DNA of 64,000 nucleotides from Epidermidibacterium keratini (GTDB lineage Bacteria > Actinomycetota > Actinomycetes > Mycobacteriales > Antricoccaceae). The notes beneath the pieces were generated by a model. The model saw only the letters and a program-made list of their open reading frames with translations. It ran no database searches and was not told the DNA's origin. Positions 32,585-50,725 of the stretch are shown here, in pieces; within the stretch, counting starts at the first letter, position 1, and each line of letters begins with the position of its first letter. The stretch lies in NCBI RefSeq assembly GCF_009834025.1, contig NZ_CP047156.1:1612001-1676000 (forward strand), read 5' to 3'. Position numbers and translations under genes: made by a program.

Positions 32585-33826
32585 GTGTTAGGGCCGTACC
32601 GCGACGTACTGCGCACCCCGCGCACGGTGCCGATGGAACTGTTTGGGTTCATCGGCCGCTTACCGCTCTCTATGGTCGGGCTCGGCTCGGTCTTCCTCGT
32701 CGTCGGCAACTACCCCGGAAACTCCTACGGGCTCGGCGGGACGGTGGCCGCATTCGGTGCGATTGCCACCGCGATCATGGGTCCGATCCTGGGCCGACTG
32801 GCTGACCGCTACGGCCAACGCAAAGTGCTCATCCCCGTCGTCATCACGTTTGGCGCCGGCGCCGCCTTGTTCATCGTGGCCGTCCAAAACCACGCACCCG
32901 CCTGGGTTCTCTTCGCCGCGGCCGCGGTCGCCGGTGGATCAATCCCACCGGTGGGCTCGATGCTGCGCGCCCGCTGGTCCTACCTGTTGGAAGGATCGCA
33001 GCGGCTGCCGACCGCCCTGGCGATGGAATCGGTGCTCGACGAGCTCGTCTTCATCATCGGTCCGGTGCTGGTGACGTTCTTGTCGACCACCGGTCATGCC
33101 ACGTTGGGCATGGCGGTCGCCGCGACGCTCGCCGTCATCGGCAGCCTGCTCTTCTCGACCCAGACCGCTACCGAGCCGCCACCGGGGCGGGATGAGATCC
33201 CGCGCGGCACTCGTTCCGCGATCCGCATCCCCGGCCTGATGATCCTGTGCATCGTGGGGCTGTCGATGGGCGCCGTACTCGGCACCTTCGAGCTGGTCCT
33301 CGTCGCCTTCGCCAAGGAACAGGGCGAGTCGTCGATGGCCGGCGTACTCATCGCCGCCCTCGCCATCGGGTCGATGGCAGCGGGCCTGATCTGGGGCACG
33401 ATCGACTGGCTGGCACCGCTGAACCGCCGGCTGCTGCTGATCCTGTCGGCGCTGACTCTCGCGACGCTGCCGACCCTGGTGATTCCGGGCATCTGGATGA
33501 TGGCGATCTTCGTGGCGATCTGCGGCATGGCAGTCTCGCCGTCGCTGATCACGACCTTCACGATCTGCGAGCTCATCGTGCCGCGCGAGCAGACCAACGA
33601 AGGGTTCACCTGGATCGGTACGACGATCGCGTTGGGCGTGGCCCTCGGTACGTCGACCTCCGGGATTGTGGTCGACAAGTTTAGCCCGAACCTCGCCTTC
33701 GGTGTCGCGACCCTGGCCGCCGGACTCGCGGCGCTCGCGGTCTGGGCCGGGCAGCGGCTGCTGCAGCCGCGCGGCCGGCAGGTCGCCACCGACACCTCCT
33801 ACGGCTACCCCGAACTCGACGACTAA
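32585..33826 (+). CDS. MFS transporter of unknown substrate
   Basis: A 413-residue protein with 12 hydrophobic helices and a motif A-like loop GRLADRYGQRKVL near residue 70. It starts with GTG at 32585 without a strong ribosome binding site, so it may be leaderless or weakly translated. The stop codon TAA is directly followed by a 21-bp repeat array. Substrate cannot be inferred. Confidence 0.8.
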   Translation: MLGPYRDVLRTPRTVPMELFGFIGRLPLSMVGLGSVFLVVGNYPGNSYGLGGTVAAFGAIATAIMGPILGRLADRYGQRKVLIPVVITFGAGAALFIVAVQNHAPAWVLFAAAAVAGGSIPPVGSMLRARWSYLLEGSQRLPTALAMESVLDELVFIIGPVLVTFLSTTGHATLGMAVAATLAVIGSLLFSTQTATEPPPGRDEIPRGTRSAIRIPGLMILCIVGLSMGAVLGTFELVLVAFAKEQGESSMAGVLIAALAIGSMAAGLIWGTIDWLAPLNRRLLLILSALTLATLPTLVIPGIWMMAIFVAICGMAVSPSLITTFTICELIVPREQTNEGFTWIGTTIALGVALGTSTSGIVVDKFSPNLAFGVATLAAGLAALAVWAGQRLLQPRGRQVATDTSYGYPELDD

Positions 33827-33832
33827 TCCGCC

Positions 33833-33916
33833 GATCCGAACGTTAATCCCCGCGATCCGAACGTTAATCCCCGCGATCCGAGAGATATTGCGCGCGATCC
33901 GAGAGAAACCGCGGCG
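33833..33916 (+). repeat. 21-bp repeat array A (4 units)
   Basis: Four units start at 33833, 33854, 33875 and 33896, exactly 21 bases apart, each opening GATCCGA. Units 1-2 continue ACGTTAAT, unit 3 GAGATAT and unit 4 GAGAAAC, followed by GC-rich tails (CCCCGC, GCGCGC). The array begins 6 bases after the stop codon of the MFS gene, in the same orientation. Arrays B, C and D are the same family. Confidence 0.9.
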
Positions 33917-35777: not shown

Positions 35778-36746
35778 ATGAGTCTTCCTCGCCTGCATCT
35801 CCTCTCGCTCGGCGGCACGATCGCCTCGACGGATGTCGGTTCGTCCCCCGGCGTCGGCCCTAAGTTGGGCGCAGCCGAGCTGGTCGCCGCCGCCCCGGGG
35901 CTCGAGACGGTCGCGCAGATCAGCACCGAGCAGCTCGCTCAAGTCGGCTCGTCCAGCCTCACCCCCGATCTTGCGGTCTCGGTCGCCCGCGCGGCTCGCG
36001 CCGCCATCGATGACGGTGCGCAGGGCATCATCGTCACCCAGGGCACCGACACGCTTGAGGAAACGGCGTACCTGCTGAGCCTGCTCGGCGACGCGCGAGC
36101 CCCCATCGCGGTCACCGGAGCGATGCGCAACCCGACCCTGCCCGGCGCCGACGGCCCGGCAAACCTGCTTGCAGCAGCGCAGGTCGCGGCAAGCGACCAG
36201 CTGCGCGACACCCGCGCGGTCGTGGTGTTCAACGACGAGATCCACGACCCACAGTGGGTGCGCAAGGGGCACACGACGAGTACGGCGGCGTTCACCTCCG
36301 GTCCACATGCCGGCCCGATCGGGTGGGTGCACGAGGGCGCGGTCGCTCTGCACGGTAGGCCGGTCACCCCGCCGCAAGTCGACCTTCCCTCCGGCGAGAT
36401 CCCGCCCGTTGCGCTCGTCGCTGCCGGGCTCGGCGAAGACCTGCGCGTTGTCGAGGCACTCGCTGACCTCGGGTACGCCGGCGCTGTCATCGACGGCGTG
36501 GGCGGCGGCCACGTGCACGCCGATGCCGTACCGCGACTCGAACGGCTCGCTGCGCAGATGCCCGTCGTACTCGCCTCCCGCACGGGGTCGGGGCTCATGC
36601 TGAGATCGACGTACGGCTATCCGGGTTCGGAGATCGACCTGATGGGTCGCGGTCTGCGCAACGCCGGGCCCCTTTCCGGGCGCAAAGCCCGGTTGCTGCT
36701 CGGCGTACTGCTGGCCAACGGCGCGGCTGATGAGTGGCCCTACTGA
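35778..36746 (+). CDS. L-asparaginase
   Basis: A 322-residue enzyme hydrolysing L-asparagine to aspartate and ammonia. The first catalytic threonine lies in LLSLGGTIAST and the second catalytic set in IVTQGTDTLEETAYLL, followed by PIAVTGAMR. No signal peptide is seen, so it is probably cytoplasmic. The ATG at 35778 begins the family's N-terminus. The long leader with a strong hairpin suggests control of transcription or mRNA stability. Its stop codon abuts array D, which belongs to the convergent gene. Confidence 0.92.
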   Translation: MSLPRLHLLSLGGTIASTDVGSSPGVGPKLGAAELVAAAPGLETVAQISTEQLAQVGSSSLTPDLAVSVARAARAAIDDGAQGIIVTQGTDTLEETAYLLSLLGDARAPIAVTGAMRNPTLPGADGPANLLAAAQVAASDQLRDTRAVVVFNDEIHDPQWVRKGHTTSTAAFTSGPHAGPIGWVHEGAVALHGRPVTPPQVDLPSGEIPPVALVAAGLGEDLRVVEALADLGYAGAVIDGVGGGHVHADAVPRLERLAAQMPVVLASRTGSGLMLRSTYGYPGSEIDLMGRGLRNAGPLSGRKARLLLGVLLANGAADEWPY

Positions 36747-36805
36747 GCAACAACGCTCGGATCTGCGGAATTAACGTTCGGATCTGCGTGATTAACGTTC
36801 GGATC
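36743..36805 (-). repeat. 21-bp repeat array D (3 units)
   Basis: On the minus strand, units start at 36805, 36784 and 36763, exactly 21 bases apart: GATCCGAACGTTAAT twice, then a decayed GATCCGAGCGTTGTT that runs into the asparaginase stop codon. It begins 20 bases downstream of the stop of the minus-strand CoA-transferase gene, in its sense orientation. Confidence 0.88.
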
Positions 36806-46626: not shown

Positions 46627-48267
46627 ATGACCAATGACCCACGCGCGGGCCAACCGGCCACCGCCGACGACCTCGTCGACGTCGACGAGCTGATCTCGGC
46701 GTACTACGAGCTCCGGCCAAACATCGCCGAGTCCACCCAGAAAGTCGCATTTGGCACGTCCGGGCACCGCGGCTCGTCGCTGAAGACGTCGTTCAACGAC
46801 GATCACATTGCCGCGACGTCGCAGGCGATCTGTGAGTACCGCGAACGCGAGGGCATCACCGGACCGTTGTTCCTCGGTCGCGACACGCACGCGCTGAGCG
46901 GGCCGGCCCAGGACACCGCACTTGAGGTGTTTGCCGCTAACGGAGTGCGCGTCGTACTCGACTCTCGCGACGGCTACACGCCCACACCCGCGCTCTCGCA
47001 CGCGATCTTGACCTACAACCGCTCGGGACGCTCCGATGCCGCCGACGGTGTCGTCGTGACGCCATCACACAACCCGCCGCAGGATGGCGGCTTCAAGTAC
47101 AACCCGCCCGACGGAGGCCCGGCGGGCTCGGACATCACGACGCGCATCCAGGACCGCGCCAACGAGATCCTCGCGACCGGACTCGGCGAGGTGCGCCGCC
47201 TCTCTCTCGATGATGCGAAGTCCGCAGCGACGACAGGACGCTTCGACTTCCTCGACTCGTACGTCGGTGATCTCGGCTCGATCATCGATATGGACGCGAT
47301 CAAGCAGGCCGGCGTACACATCGGCGCTGACCCGCTCGGCGGAGCATCGGTCGCCTACTGGGCCGAGATCGGCGCGCGCTACGGGCTGAACCTCGACGTC
47401 GTCAACGAGACGGTCGACCCGCAGTGGGGTTTCATGACGCTCGACTGGGACGGGCAGATCCGGATGGACTCGTCATCGCAGTTCGCGATGGCCTCGCTCG
47501 TGGGCAACAAGGACATCTACGACATCGCGACCGGCAACGACGCGGACGCCGACCGGCACGGCATTGTCACCCCCGACGGCGGGCTGATGAACCCGAACCA
47601 CTACCTCGCCGTCGCGATCGACTATCTCTACACGCATCGCCTGCACTGGTCACCGGACTGCGCCATCGGCAAGACGCTCGTGTCGTCGTCGATGATCGAC
47701 CGGGTCGCGGTGGGCCTGGGTCGCCGGCTTGTCGAGGTGCCGGTCGGCTTCAAGTGGTTTGTGCCCGGCCTGCTCGATGGGTCGATCGGCTTCGGCGGCG
47801 AAGAGTCGGCGGGAGCGTCGTTCCTGCGCACCGACGGCACGGTGTGGACGACCGACAAGGACGGCATCATCATGTGCCTGTTGGCCTCGGAAATCCTTGC
47901 TGTCACTGGAAAAACGCCGTCGCAGCGGTACGCCGAGCTGACGGAGCAGTACGGCGCTCCGGCGTACGCCCGCATCGATGCCCCGGCTGACCCGGCGGCG
48001 AAGAAGAAGCTCGGCCGACTCGCCCCCGACTCGATCACCGTCGAGTCGATTGCCGGCGACCCGATCACCGCGAAGCTCTCCGAGGCCCCCGGCAATGGCG
48101 CCCCGATCGGCGGGGTGAAGGTCACAACCGATAACGGCTGGTTTGCCGCTCGCCCGTCCGGCACCGAGGATGTCTACAAGATCTACGCCGAGTCGTTCTC
48201 CGGTCCCGACCACCTGGCACAGATCCAGTCCGAGGCCAAGCAGATCGTCGACACCGCCATCTCCTAA
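46627..48267 (+). CDS. pgm: Phosphoglucomutase (alpha-D-glucose phosphate-specific)
   Basis: A 546-residue enzyme interconverting glucose 1-phosphate and glucose 6-phosphate. It has the family start [14 protein letters not shown], the phosphoserine loop [17 protein letters not shown], the metal loop NDADADRHG, the sugar-binding GGEESAGAS and the phosphate-binding [16 protein letters not shown]. Length matches the bacterial Pgm family. The ATG at 46627 has GGCAGG just before it. Its TAA stop is followed within 4 bases by 21-bp repeat array B. Glycogen, trehalose and cell-wall sugars need this enzyme. Confidence 0.95.
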
Positions 48268-48271
48268 CCGC

Positions 48272-48376
48272 GATCCGAACGTTAATCCCGCCGATCCGAA
48301 CATTAATCCCGCCGATCCGAGAGATATTTCGCGCGATCCGAGAGAAATCGCGCGCGATCCGAGAGAAATTGCGTGA
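48272..48376 (+). repeat. 21-bp repeat array B (5 units)
   Basis: Five units at 48272, 48293, 48314, 48335 and 48356, exactly 21 bases apart, all opening GATCCGA. Units 1-2 continue ACGTTAAT or ACATTAAT, unit 3 GAGATAT, units 4-5 GAGAAAT, with GC-rich tails between. It starts 4 bases after the pgm stop codon in sense orientation. The variant order is the same as in arrays A and C. Confidence 0.93.
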
Positions 48377-48404
48377 CGAGCGCCTCACGACGAGGCGTTA
48401 GCGT

Positions 48405-48423
48405 GTTAGCAAACCGTGCTAAC
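48405..48423. promoter_or_regulatory. Inverted repeat upstream of the phasin-like gene
   Basis: GTTAGCA-N5-TGCTAAC is a perfect 7+7 inverted repeat, 55 bases before the phasin-like ATG, preceded by another half-site GTTAGC at 48397. It looks like an operator of a TetR- or XRE-type regulator, and a nearby XRE gene could be its ligand. Confidence 0.5.
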
Positions 48424-48478
48424 GTGGTCGGCGTACGGCGAGAAGATCTCGCTTCACGACCATAGACGGGAGATCACC

Positions 48479-48763
48479 ATGGTCGCCAGCAAGAACGACA
48501 CGACTGTCCCCGGCGTCGACTTCGAAGCCGCCGCCGGCCGCATCCGCGACCTCAACGAGCAGGTCATCGAGCAGGCCAAGAAGTCCGGCAACGTCAGCCT
48601 GGACGCCTACGAGAAGGCCCTGACCAGTGTCCTCGACTTCGAGAAGAAGGCCGCCGGCGCGTCGCAGCTTGACTTCGTCAAGGCGCTCACCGATGCGCAC
48701 GTCAACTTCGTGTCGCAGACCTCGGAGGCCTACCTCAAGGCCGCGCGCGAGGTTCTGAAGTAA
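48479..48763 (+). CDS. Phasin-like PHA granule protein
   Basis: A 94-residue, mostly helical amphipathic protein: FEAAAGRIRDLNEQVIEQAKKSGNVSLDAYEKALTSVLDFEKKAAGASQLDFVKALTDAHVNFVSQTSEAYLKAAREVLK. Length, helicity and position facing phaC fit a phasin that coats polyhydroxyalkanoate granules, but the sequence alone is not diagnostic. The ATG at 48479 begins MVASKND, with GGGAG upstream. A strong terminator follows 15 bases after the stop, and array B lies upstream. Confidence 0.65.
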   Translation: MVASKNDTTVPGVDFEAAAGRIRDLNEQVIEQAKKSGNVSLDAYEKALTSVLDFEKKAAGASQLDFVKALTDAHVNFVSQTSEAYLKAAREVLK

Positions 48764-48777
48764 CCACGCACCAGAAC

Positions 48778-48820
48778 ACACGAAGCGCCCGGGCCGATCG
48801 GCTCGGGCGCTTCGTGTTTT
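48778..48820 (+). terminator. Rho-independent terminator of the phasin-like gene
   Basis: An 18-bp stem with one G-U pair (48778-48795 with 48800-48817) around the loop GATC, followed by TTT. It ends phasin transcription and borders array C. Confidence 0.9.
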
Positions 48821-48914
48821 CTGTCGGATCGCGCGTTACTTCTCTCGGATCGGCGGAAATATCTCTCGGATCGCGGGAAATAACGTTCGGATCGGCGGGA
48901 TTAACGTTCGGATC
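48810..48914 (-). repeat. 21-bp repeat array C (5 units)
   Basis: On the minus strand, units start at 48914, 48893, 48872, 48851 and 48830, exactly 21 bases apart, each opening GATCCGA. Units 1-2 continue ACGTTAAT and ACGTTATT, unit 3 GAGATAT, unit 4 GAGAAGT, unit 5 CAGAAAA. The first G of unit 1 is the last base of the phaC stop codon TAG. The last unit overlaps the T-run of the phasin terminator. Confidence 0.92.
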
Positions 48915-50725
48915 TAGGTGGGGTGCACCTGCTTGAGGACGTAGGTGCCCGGGGCGTCCTCGATCGGCGGGTACTTCTTCGAGCCCATCGCAGGCGGGTC
49001 GACGAGTTCACCGGCACGCGAGTTGGTCCACTCGACCCAGTCCTCCCACCAGGTCCCGGTGTGCTTCGTTGCTTCCTCACGCCACTGCGCGGCGGTCGGC
49101 GGGTGCTCGGCGCCTTCAGGCAGCGCCTCAAACCAGTTCTTCGGCCCCGGCGGGTTCACGATTCCAGCAATATGCCCGCCGGACGAGAGCACGTAGCGCG
49201 GCTGACCACCAAAGAGCTGGCTGGATTTGTACGACGTTGCCCACGGAACGATGTGGTCGTTGATCGCGCCCACGATGTAGACCTCGCTGTCGACACCAGC
49301 GGGATCGGCGAGTACGCCGGCCAGCTTGAACTCGCCCTCGGCGAGCTCGTTGTTGCGGAAGATCCGCTGCAAGAACTCGGTGAGGAACGCTTCAGTCAGG
49401 TGCGTGCCGTCTTCGTTCCACGCGAGGATGTCAAACGCCGGCGGCGCCTCACCCTTCAGCCAGCGCGAGACCACGTAGTTAAAGATCAGGTCGTTGGCGC
49501 GCATCATGTCGAACGTGAACGACAGGTCGTCACCGTGCAGATAGCCGTGCTTGCTGATCTTTTCCTCGAGCTGGTTGATCGACGCGGGATCGAGCATCGA
49601 GCCGAGCTCGCCGGGATCGGCCAGGTCGAGCGGGGTGTTTTGCAGCGACAACGTGTTGACGATGCCCGGACGCTCGGCTGCAAGGTACGACGAGATGACC
49701 GAGGCCGCGATGCCGCCAAGGCAGAGCCCTACGATGTCGAGCTTGTCCGATCCGGTGATCTCTGAGATGACGTCGACCGCGTTGAGTACGCCGTTCTCCA
49801 GGTAGTCATCGAACGACGTACTGCGCGTCTTCTCATCGGGGTTGACGTAGGAAAGCACGAACACGGTGCGTTCGTGCTGCACGGCCCACTCGATGAAGCT
49901 GCGCTGCGGCGCGAGGTCCATCACGTAGTACTTGTTGACCCACGGCGGGCTCATCAAGATCGGCACCTCGTGGACCTTCTCGGTCTGCGGTGAGTACTGG
50001 ATGAGCTCTGCGACCTCGTTGCGGAAGACGACCTTGCCCGGCGTCGCCGCGAGGTCCTTGCCCATCGTGAAGTTGGCGCGGTCGACCTTCATCGGACGTC
50101 CGCCGCGTTTGACCGCGTCGTCGGAGGCGAAGCGCAGTCCCTGGTACAGCGACTTTCCGCCGGTCTGCAGCGCCTTGGACAGCACCTCCGGGTTGGTAAA
50201 TGCCAGGTTGGTCGGAGAGGCGACGTTTTGGGCGAACTGCGCGAACTGCTTGGCTTTTGCGCCGGTCAGCGGGTCGACCCGCGATGCTCCGGAGTCGATC
50301 ACCTCGTCGACGAAGTTGCAGGTGGCGAGGTAGCCCTGGCGGATGCCGAAGAACAGCGGGTTCAGGTCCCAGGTCGGGTCGGCAAACCGCTTGTCGCGCG
50401 GCCCGGGATCGACCGGCGGGTCACCGGGGTTGCTGGTGAGCCGGCGCAGGCTCGCTCCGGGGATCTTCGCCATCTTCCCGGCGAGGCGCCCGGCCGCACC
50501 GGCGACCTCCTGCGGGTGCTTGACCGCCTCGCCGGCGACCTTCGCCGTCGCCGGCACCCACCCCATCGGGTCGAGGCGACGGATCGCCTTGGGCAGCCTC
50601 GAACGCTTAGCGCCCGGTATCGACGGTGCCGATGCCTGCTCGCGCGCGCCTCCGGGCTTCGACTGACGAACCCGCGTCGGCGTGACCGGCGGGCGTCCTG
50701 TGCGTGGCTGCTGCTTGTCGGTCAT
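48914..50725 (-). CDS. phaC: Poly(3-hydroxyalkanoate) synthase
   Basis: A 603-residue enzyme polymerising 3-hydroxyacyl-CoA into storage polyester on granules. The lipase-box-like GLCLGG carries the catalytic Cys; INDHIVPW and SSGGHIAG hold the catalytic Asp and His. Length and PPWVNKYYVMDL and YVNPDEKTRS motifs match class I synthases. The N-terminal 70 residues are basic and low complexity. The ATG at 50725 has GGGGAGGTAG upstream. It converges with the phasin-like gene, and its stop codon merges with array C. Confidence 0.92.
   Translation of the reverse strand: MTDKQQPRTGRPPVTPTRVRQSKPGGAREQASAPSIPGAKRSRLPKAIRRLDPMGWVPATAKVAGEAVKHPQEVAGAAGRLAGKMAKIPGASLRRLTSNPGDPPVDPGPRDKRFADPTWDLNPLFFGIRQGYLATCNFVDEVIDSGASRVDPLTGAKAKQFAQFAQNVASPTNLAFTNPEVLSKALQTGGKSLYQGLRFASDDAVKRGGRPMKVDRANFTMGKDLAATPGKVVFRNEVAELIQYSPQTEKVHEVPILMSPPWVNKYYVMDLAPQRSFIEWAVQHERTVFVLSYVNPDEKTRSTSFDDYLENGVLNAVDVISEITGSDKLDIVGLCLGGIAASVISSYLAAERPGIVNTLSLQNTPLDLADPGELGSMLDPASINQLEEKISKHGYLHGDDLSFTFDMMRANDLIFNYVVSRWLKGEAPPAFDILAWNEDGTHLTEAFLTEFLQRIFRNNELAEGEFKLAGVLADPAGVDSEVYIVGAINDHIVPWATSYKSSQLFGGQPRYVLSSGGHIAGIVNPPGPKNWFEALPEGAEHPPTAAQWREEATKHTGTWWEDWVEWTNSRAGELVDPPAMGSKKYPPIEDAPGTYVLKQVHPT

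Follow-up and report, generated by a model that had tools for sequence, protein, structure and literature searches.

Tandem arrays of a 21-bp repeat at stop codons of Epidermidibacterium keratini appear to form an undescribed, non-palindromic REP-like family

The phaC locus and the repeat unit

In the skin actinobacterium Epidermidibacterium keratini, the PHA synthase gene phaC ends in a stop codon whose last base is also the first base of a tandem repeat, which raises the question of what this repeat is and whether it belongs to the end of the gene. The window analyzed, i.e., the whole stretch of 64,000 nucleotides from contig NZ_CP047156.1 (positions 1,612,001 to 1,676,000), contains four arrays of this repeat, and the features on which our analysis is based are as follows.

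33833-33916, plus strand: array A, 4 units, beginning 6 nt past the TAA (33824-33826) of a transporter-like ORF
36743-36805, minus strand: remaining array of the window, with 3 units, beginning 20 nt past a TAA
46630-48267, plus strand: pgm (phosphoglucomutase), an ORF with Pfam PGM_PMM domains and its stop TAA at 48265-48267
48272-48376, plus strand: array B, 5 units, beginning 4 nt past the pgm TAA
48479-48763, plus strand: small phasin-like gene (phaP), an ORF of 94 codons between the facing arrays B and C
48774-48824, no strand assigned: hairpin and T-run 3′ of the phasin-like gene, seen in the sequence and overlapping the distal unit of array C
48810-48914, minus strand: array C, 5 units in 21-bp steps, the first GATCCGA beginning at G48914
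48914-50800, minus strand: phaC (PHA synthase), an ORF with a Pfam PhaC_N match (E 1.6e-53) and its stop TAG at 48916-48914

The initial annotation of this DNA had reported that the phaC TAG ends in the very G with which array C begins (G48914, minus strand) and that array A starts six bases after a TAA, and both statements are correct. Pfam gave no match for the phasin-like ORF, whose putative name rests on a similar ORF beside phaC in two relatives, G001 and G004. An Rfam search of positions 48200-49000 returned four matches, all of them below the gathering score and all over the end of phaP and the hairpin; a sub-threshold match to the ftsZ-DE RNA lies at 48747-48817 (34.6 bits, with a cut-off of 72.2). 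An array behind a stop codon would itself be the 3′ UTR. The arrays are not a general 3′-end signal, since phaP has its own hairpin and T-run, and since only 7 of 697 gene ends in a continuous 800-kb block of the genome (about 1%) carry an array.

Our scan of the genome, a single contig of 4,018,808 bp (4.02 Mb), found 192 occurrences of the pattern GATCCGA-N14-GATCCGA and none of its reversed control. We read 1.11 Mb of this sequence, consisting of stretches picked around array places together with the 800-kb block, which contain 189 of the 192 exact adjacent pairs. Scoring of units identified 75 places, and after four with a single unit were dropped we kept 71 arrays of at least two units; the shuffled control gave zero arrays at a score of 12. 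The genome thus carries at least 71 arrays, mostly three to six units long, whose 21-bp unit contains a GATCCGA core that hardly varies. Consecutive units are spaced by 21 bp in 212 of 222 steps, with eight steps of 22, one of 20 and one of 23. Across 143 internal units, positions 2-6 of the core are invariant and position 7 is conserved in 142, with variation found at positions 8, 9, 11, 12, 14, 16 and 18-20. Two types of unit occur in a defined order, type A (about GATCCGARCGTTAWTYCCGCC) followed by type B (about GATCCGAGAGAAATTGCGCKC), with 56 A-to-B steps vs. 4 B-to-A steps, and the final unit of an array is conserved only to about position 13. The unit is not palindromic (mean folding z of +0.27 over the 71 arrays), and the arrays show no polarity with respect to the replication strand (17 plus and 19 minus in one half, 19 plus and 16 minus in the other). 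As a separate observation, the 10-mer CGGCGTACTC occurs 270 times in 800 kb (G000:C1:2930001-3730000), where it is the commonest 10-mer.

Placement at stop codons, in facing pairs and within proteins

The initial annotation had proposed that the arrays are fixed to gene ends, and this is supported both genome-wide and in six other genomes. With gene ends called by our own ORF and codon scoring, without annotation, 44 of the 71 arrays have their start no more than 20 nt from a sense stop codon, where random intergenic points and orientations predict 5.45%. The offset of the first unit from the stop is +4 in 16 arrays, -14 in nine, +5 in four and -1 in two, with the rest between -2 and +20, so that the exact overlap seen at phaC (offset -1; 2 of 44) is a minority form. 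The stop codon is TAA at 39 of the 44 array-bearing ends, compared with 213 of 971 gene ends overall. Arrays at offset -14 supply the stop themselves, through the TAA of their unit; at offset +4 the TAA sits about where a preceding unit would carry its TAA. Beyond gene-end arrays, the median free spacer is 84.5 nt, calculated over the 30 cases in which 20 nt or more are free. Array-bearing ends (3 of 43) are not distinguished from other ends (31 of 548) by intrinsic terminators.

Comparison with relatives does not support a joint movement of array and gene end. For example, the pgm orthologues of all four relatives compared lack an array and have their stop at the same codon or directly beside it, and the same is true of the orthologues of genes 163930 and 2023080 in the partial samples of relatives available for these.

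The facing arrangement of arrays B and C in inverted orientation across the phasin-like gene, also noted previously, proved to be typical. Twenty gaps between neighboring arrays are shorter than 6 kb, and in 17 of these the arrays face each other, with two pairs pointing apart and one parallel; random placement gives a mean of 7 such gaps, with a maximum of 16 in 2000 trials. Six facing pairs abut, and the junctions of five fold strongly (z of -3.5 to -7.2; the sixth, -1.2), these junctions being the only places among the arrays that fold. In G001 and G004, phaP follows phaC in tandem, whereas here phaP and its TTAGCA-rich upstream stretch are inverted relative to phaC, and the turned segment (48272-48914) ends at arrays B and C. 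Judged from this arrangement of sequence, an inversion of the phaP segment through arrays B and C is possible. Elsewhere, about 1 kb lies between two facing arrays (L145:1900-2930) in which the gene finder calls no gene and which looks coding by eye.

Not all arrays lie behind genes. Seven are read in frame and in sense within ORFs, three of them mid-ORF and four as C-terminal tails, and encode DP-rich heptapeptides such as DPNVNSA and DPREIAR; two more in-frame N-terminal cases (one PurU-like) and one antisense tail were found by eye. In one protein (L146:4881-6308), Pfam matches and alignment to relatives show that the array forms a DP-rich linker of 42 residues between RNase H and histidine phosphatase domains, where the linkers of the relatives are shorter and unrelated. 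A further 20 arrays fall into neither the gene-end nor the in-frame class, and many of these are upstream of a divergent gene start.

Sister families in other Actinomycetes

A blastn search with array B found no match in 40 relatives. The species-specificity that this result implied was ruled out at the protein level, where an array-encoded peptide matched G001, a genome with a unit of about RTCCGTCACGAAWGTCCGSC. Sister arrays occupy 43 places in G001 and none in G002-G004, and 14 of 26 G001 arrays by one scoring, or 15 of 26 by another, lie at sense gene ends.

We then used a pattern in which RTCCG recurs four times, spaced by 21 bp. It matched 100 of 397 genomes of the order, mostly with few, apparently coding, repeats, and many matches on both strands were found in G000, G001, G143, G173, G226, G250, G254, G285 and G368. 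Among 394 genomes of the class, 77 matched, with one clear further case, G621. Sister families occur in a second genus of the family, in four more members of the order and in one genome from a different order. Analysis of stretches from G250, G254, G368, G173 and G621, containing 78 arrays, demonstrated that TCCG is nearly invariant in each of these genomes and that the 21-bp period is kept, with the remainder of the unit being lineage-specific. With the codon model trained on G000 and carried over to the other genomes, 35 arrays in these five have their head at a sense stop and no tail at an antisense stop, vs. 8 with the reverse arrangement; including G000 and G001, the count is 77 vs. 17 (p 3e-10). 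G068, with four arrays and a count of 0 vs. 1, was left out of this pool. In the sister stretches, 20 of 21 neighbor pairs face each other, at least nine of these stretches having been chosen in the knowledge that both strands matched.

Three GATCCGA at 21-bp spacing were also sought in other genomes, where the best foreign match among the matches listed is a coding repeat; the same pattern occurs in 18 stretches of viral contigs, and blastn with two arrays found no match in phages or plasmids. Two minor observations concern single genomes: G621 (L411-L417) contains two distinct 21-bp TCCG array families together, CGTCCGCTGA- and CGTCCGTGCG-, and most arrays of G254 (L367-L378) open with a common special first unit (cgagtccc...) instead of the plain unit.

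Relation to known repeats and possible roles

Several known repeats share features with these arrays. The MIRU of Mycobacterium tuberculosis, which probably belongs to the same order as the genome studied here, are direct tandem, sense-oriented repeats that overlap stop codons; however, their unit is 46-101 bp, unlike the 21-bp unit with a TCCG core found here. Tagged REPs occur within 20 bp of 3′ ends, can supply stop codons, form inverted dimers and have intragenic copies (PMC3733652), and both they (with a GTAG/CGTC tag) and REPIN doublets combine a fixed four-base tag with a lineage-specific remainder (PMC3733652, PMC3116915). The arrays resemble tagged REPs and REPINs in adjoining 3′ ends, in often providing the stop codon, in their inverted doublets and intragenic copies, and in having a fixed tag in a unit that otherwise differs between lineages. 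They differ from both in being ordered 21-bp direct repeats without a unit palindrome, where a tagged REP is a palindromic unit of 20-40 bp, in a tag that is TCCG and lies inside the unit, where that of a tagged REP is GTAG or CGTC at one end, and in their sense polarity. TAACTGA heptamer arrays of Beggiatoaceae and cyanobacteria are likewise described as many short direct-repeat arrays per genome that are tolerated at protein ends and between subunits, but their unit is 7 bp and they lie mostly just upstream of start codons (PMC4679880). Rickettsia palindromic elements and PARCELs are mobile repeats found in frame within proteins (PMC2996958, PMC3733652), whereas the arrays described here are non-palindromic and mostly behind stops. 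Among the literature matches listed, which covered few subscription papers, there is no description of the unit, of stop-codon tandem repeats or of equivalents in Pseudonocardiaceae.

The arrays therefore appear to be an undescribed, non-palindromic family that we call REP-like and not REP, because their positional habits match those of REPs and their build differs (direct repeats, no palindrome, sense polarity), with co-option at transcript ends a possibility. Our preferred reading, in which we have moderate confidence, is that they stem from a scattered element of the REP/REPIN type that diversifies by lineage and has a new build, its unit being a 21-bp direct repeat in which the tag TCCG is fixed, and that its copies persist where they do least harm. 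The arrays are often doubled as an inverted, i.e., facing, pair. Since the core is invariant while the rest of the unit varies, a sequence-specific factor may read the tag; it could be an enzyme by which the arrays spread, a protein that binds them, or both. Copies would then remain where they are least harmful, right behind stop codons (often replacing the stop) and in frame in disordered linkers and at protein ends. Pure tolerance does not explain why, between tandem genes, most arrays run in the direction of the gene and lie directly against its stop although free spacer is available. Given their strong sense polarity at stop codons, the arrays may also act at transcript ends, most simply by ending or insulating transcription. 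With an element of this kind, the REP-like elements would gain a class that is built of direct repeats and lacks a palindrome, and the same core, period and stop polarity written in other letters in each genus point to a factor still to be found. It also means that the old question of whether 3′-end repeats are parasites or tools becomes testable, by comparison of lineages and through the deletion or reversal of individual arrays.

A more far-reaching version, which we put forward only tentatively, is that TCCG-tagged 21-bp arrays are an unrecognized superfamily of the Actinomycetes, in which every lineage has a sequence of its own and a tag-reading factor that co-evolves with it; these arrays would place themselves on stops and may serve as polar, pairwise transcript insulators.

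Alternatively, the arrays may be functional transcript-end modules, in which untranslated, unstructured RNA with C over G past the stop lets Rho load and end transcription; facing arrays would then insulate a gene from both sides, and copies translated in frame would have no effect, being covered by ribosomes. We consider this doubtful. The genome does have a gene with the Rho RNA-binding domain, and its arrays have the expected composition: 60 nt of RNA at the array head have a folding energy of -7.5, vs. -20.8 for random 60-mers, and the region from 30 nt before to 60 nt after the stop one of -16.3 at 42 array ends, vs. -33.3 at 877 controls. The leader (-10 to -1) is 61% C and 11% G, third-position G in the last five codons before arrays is 9% vs. 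35% (p 3e-18), and the last 30 coding nucleotides contain less G than the relatives' orthologues in 10 of 10 genes (15 gene-relative pairs). However, the C-rich leader is equally present before arrays within proteins and arrays not behind a gene, and so is not specific to gene ends, and G is as scarce at 13% of control ends as at the median array, so that a preference at insertion could account for the G-poverty; leader G shows no trend with array divergence (rho 0.13). The G residues of the core are invariant, not avoided, and three arrays in mid-gene also count against a transcript-end module. This Rho-type signal is present in E. keratini and weaker in G001, and in the other genomes of the order neither the leader nor its folding departs much from background (mean MFE of -28 to -36 vs. 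-34 to -41), which makes Rho less likely as a general explanation.

It is less probable still that the arrays are bound in phase, as double-stranded DNA, by a protein that either blocks RNA polymerase in a polar manner or organizes the nucleoid. Twenty-one base pairs are two helical turns, and the fixed spacing with its small deviations, the invariant core and the polarity would all suit such a protein, but tandem duplication alone yields exact spacing, sense copies within genes would block their own gene, and so few gene ends have an array.

Finally, ordinary slippage minisatellites or coding repeats of no common origin are a very improbable source, since, common as tandem repeats are, and though many of the order- and class-wide pattern matches resemble coding repeats, the copy number already contradicts this: one unit recurs at about 70 sites, the shuffled control has none, and tag and placement are common to several genera.
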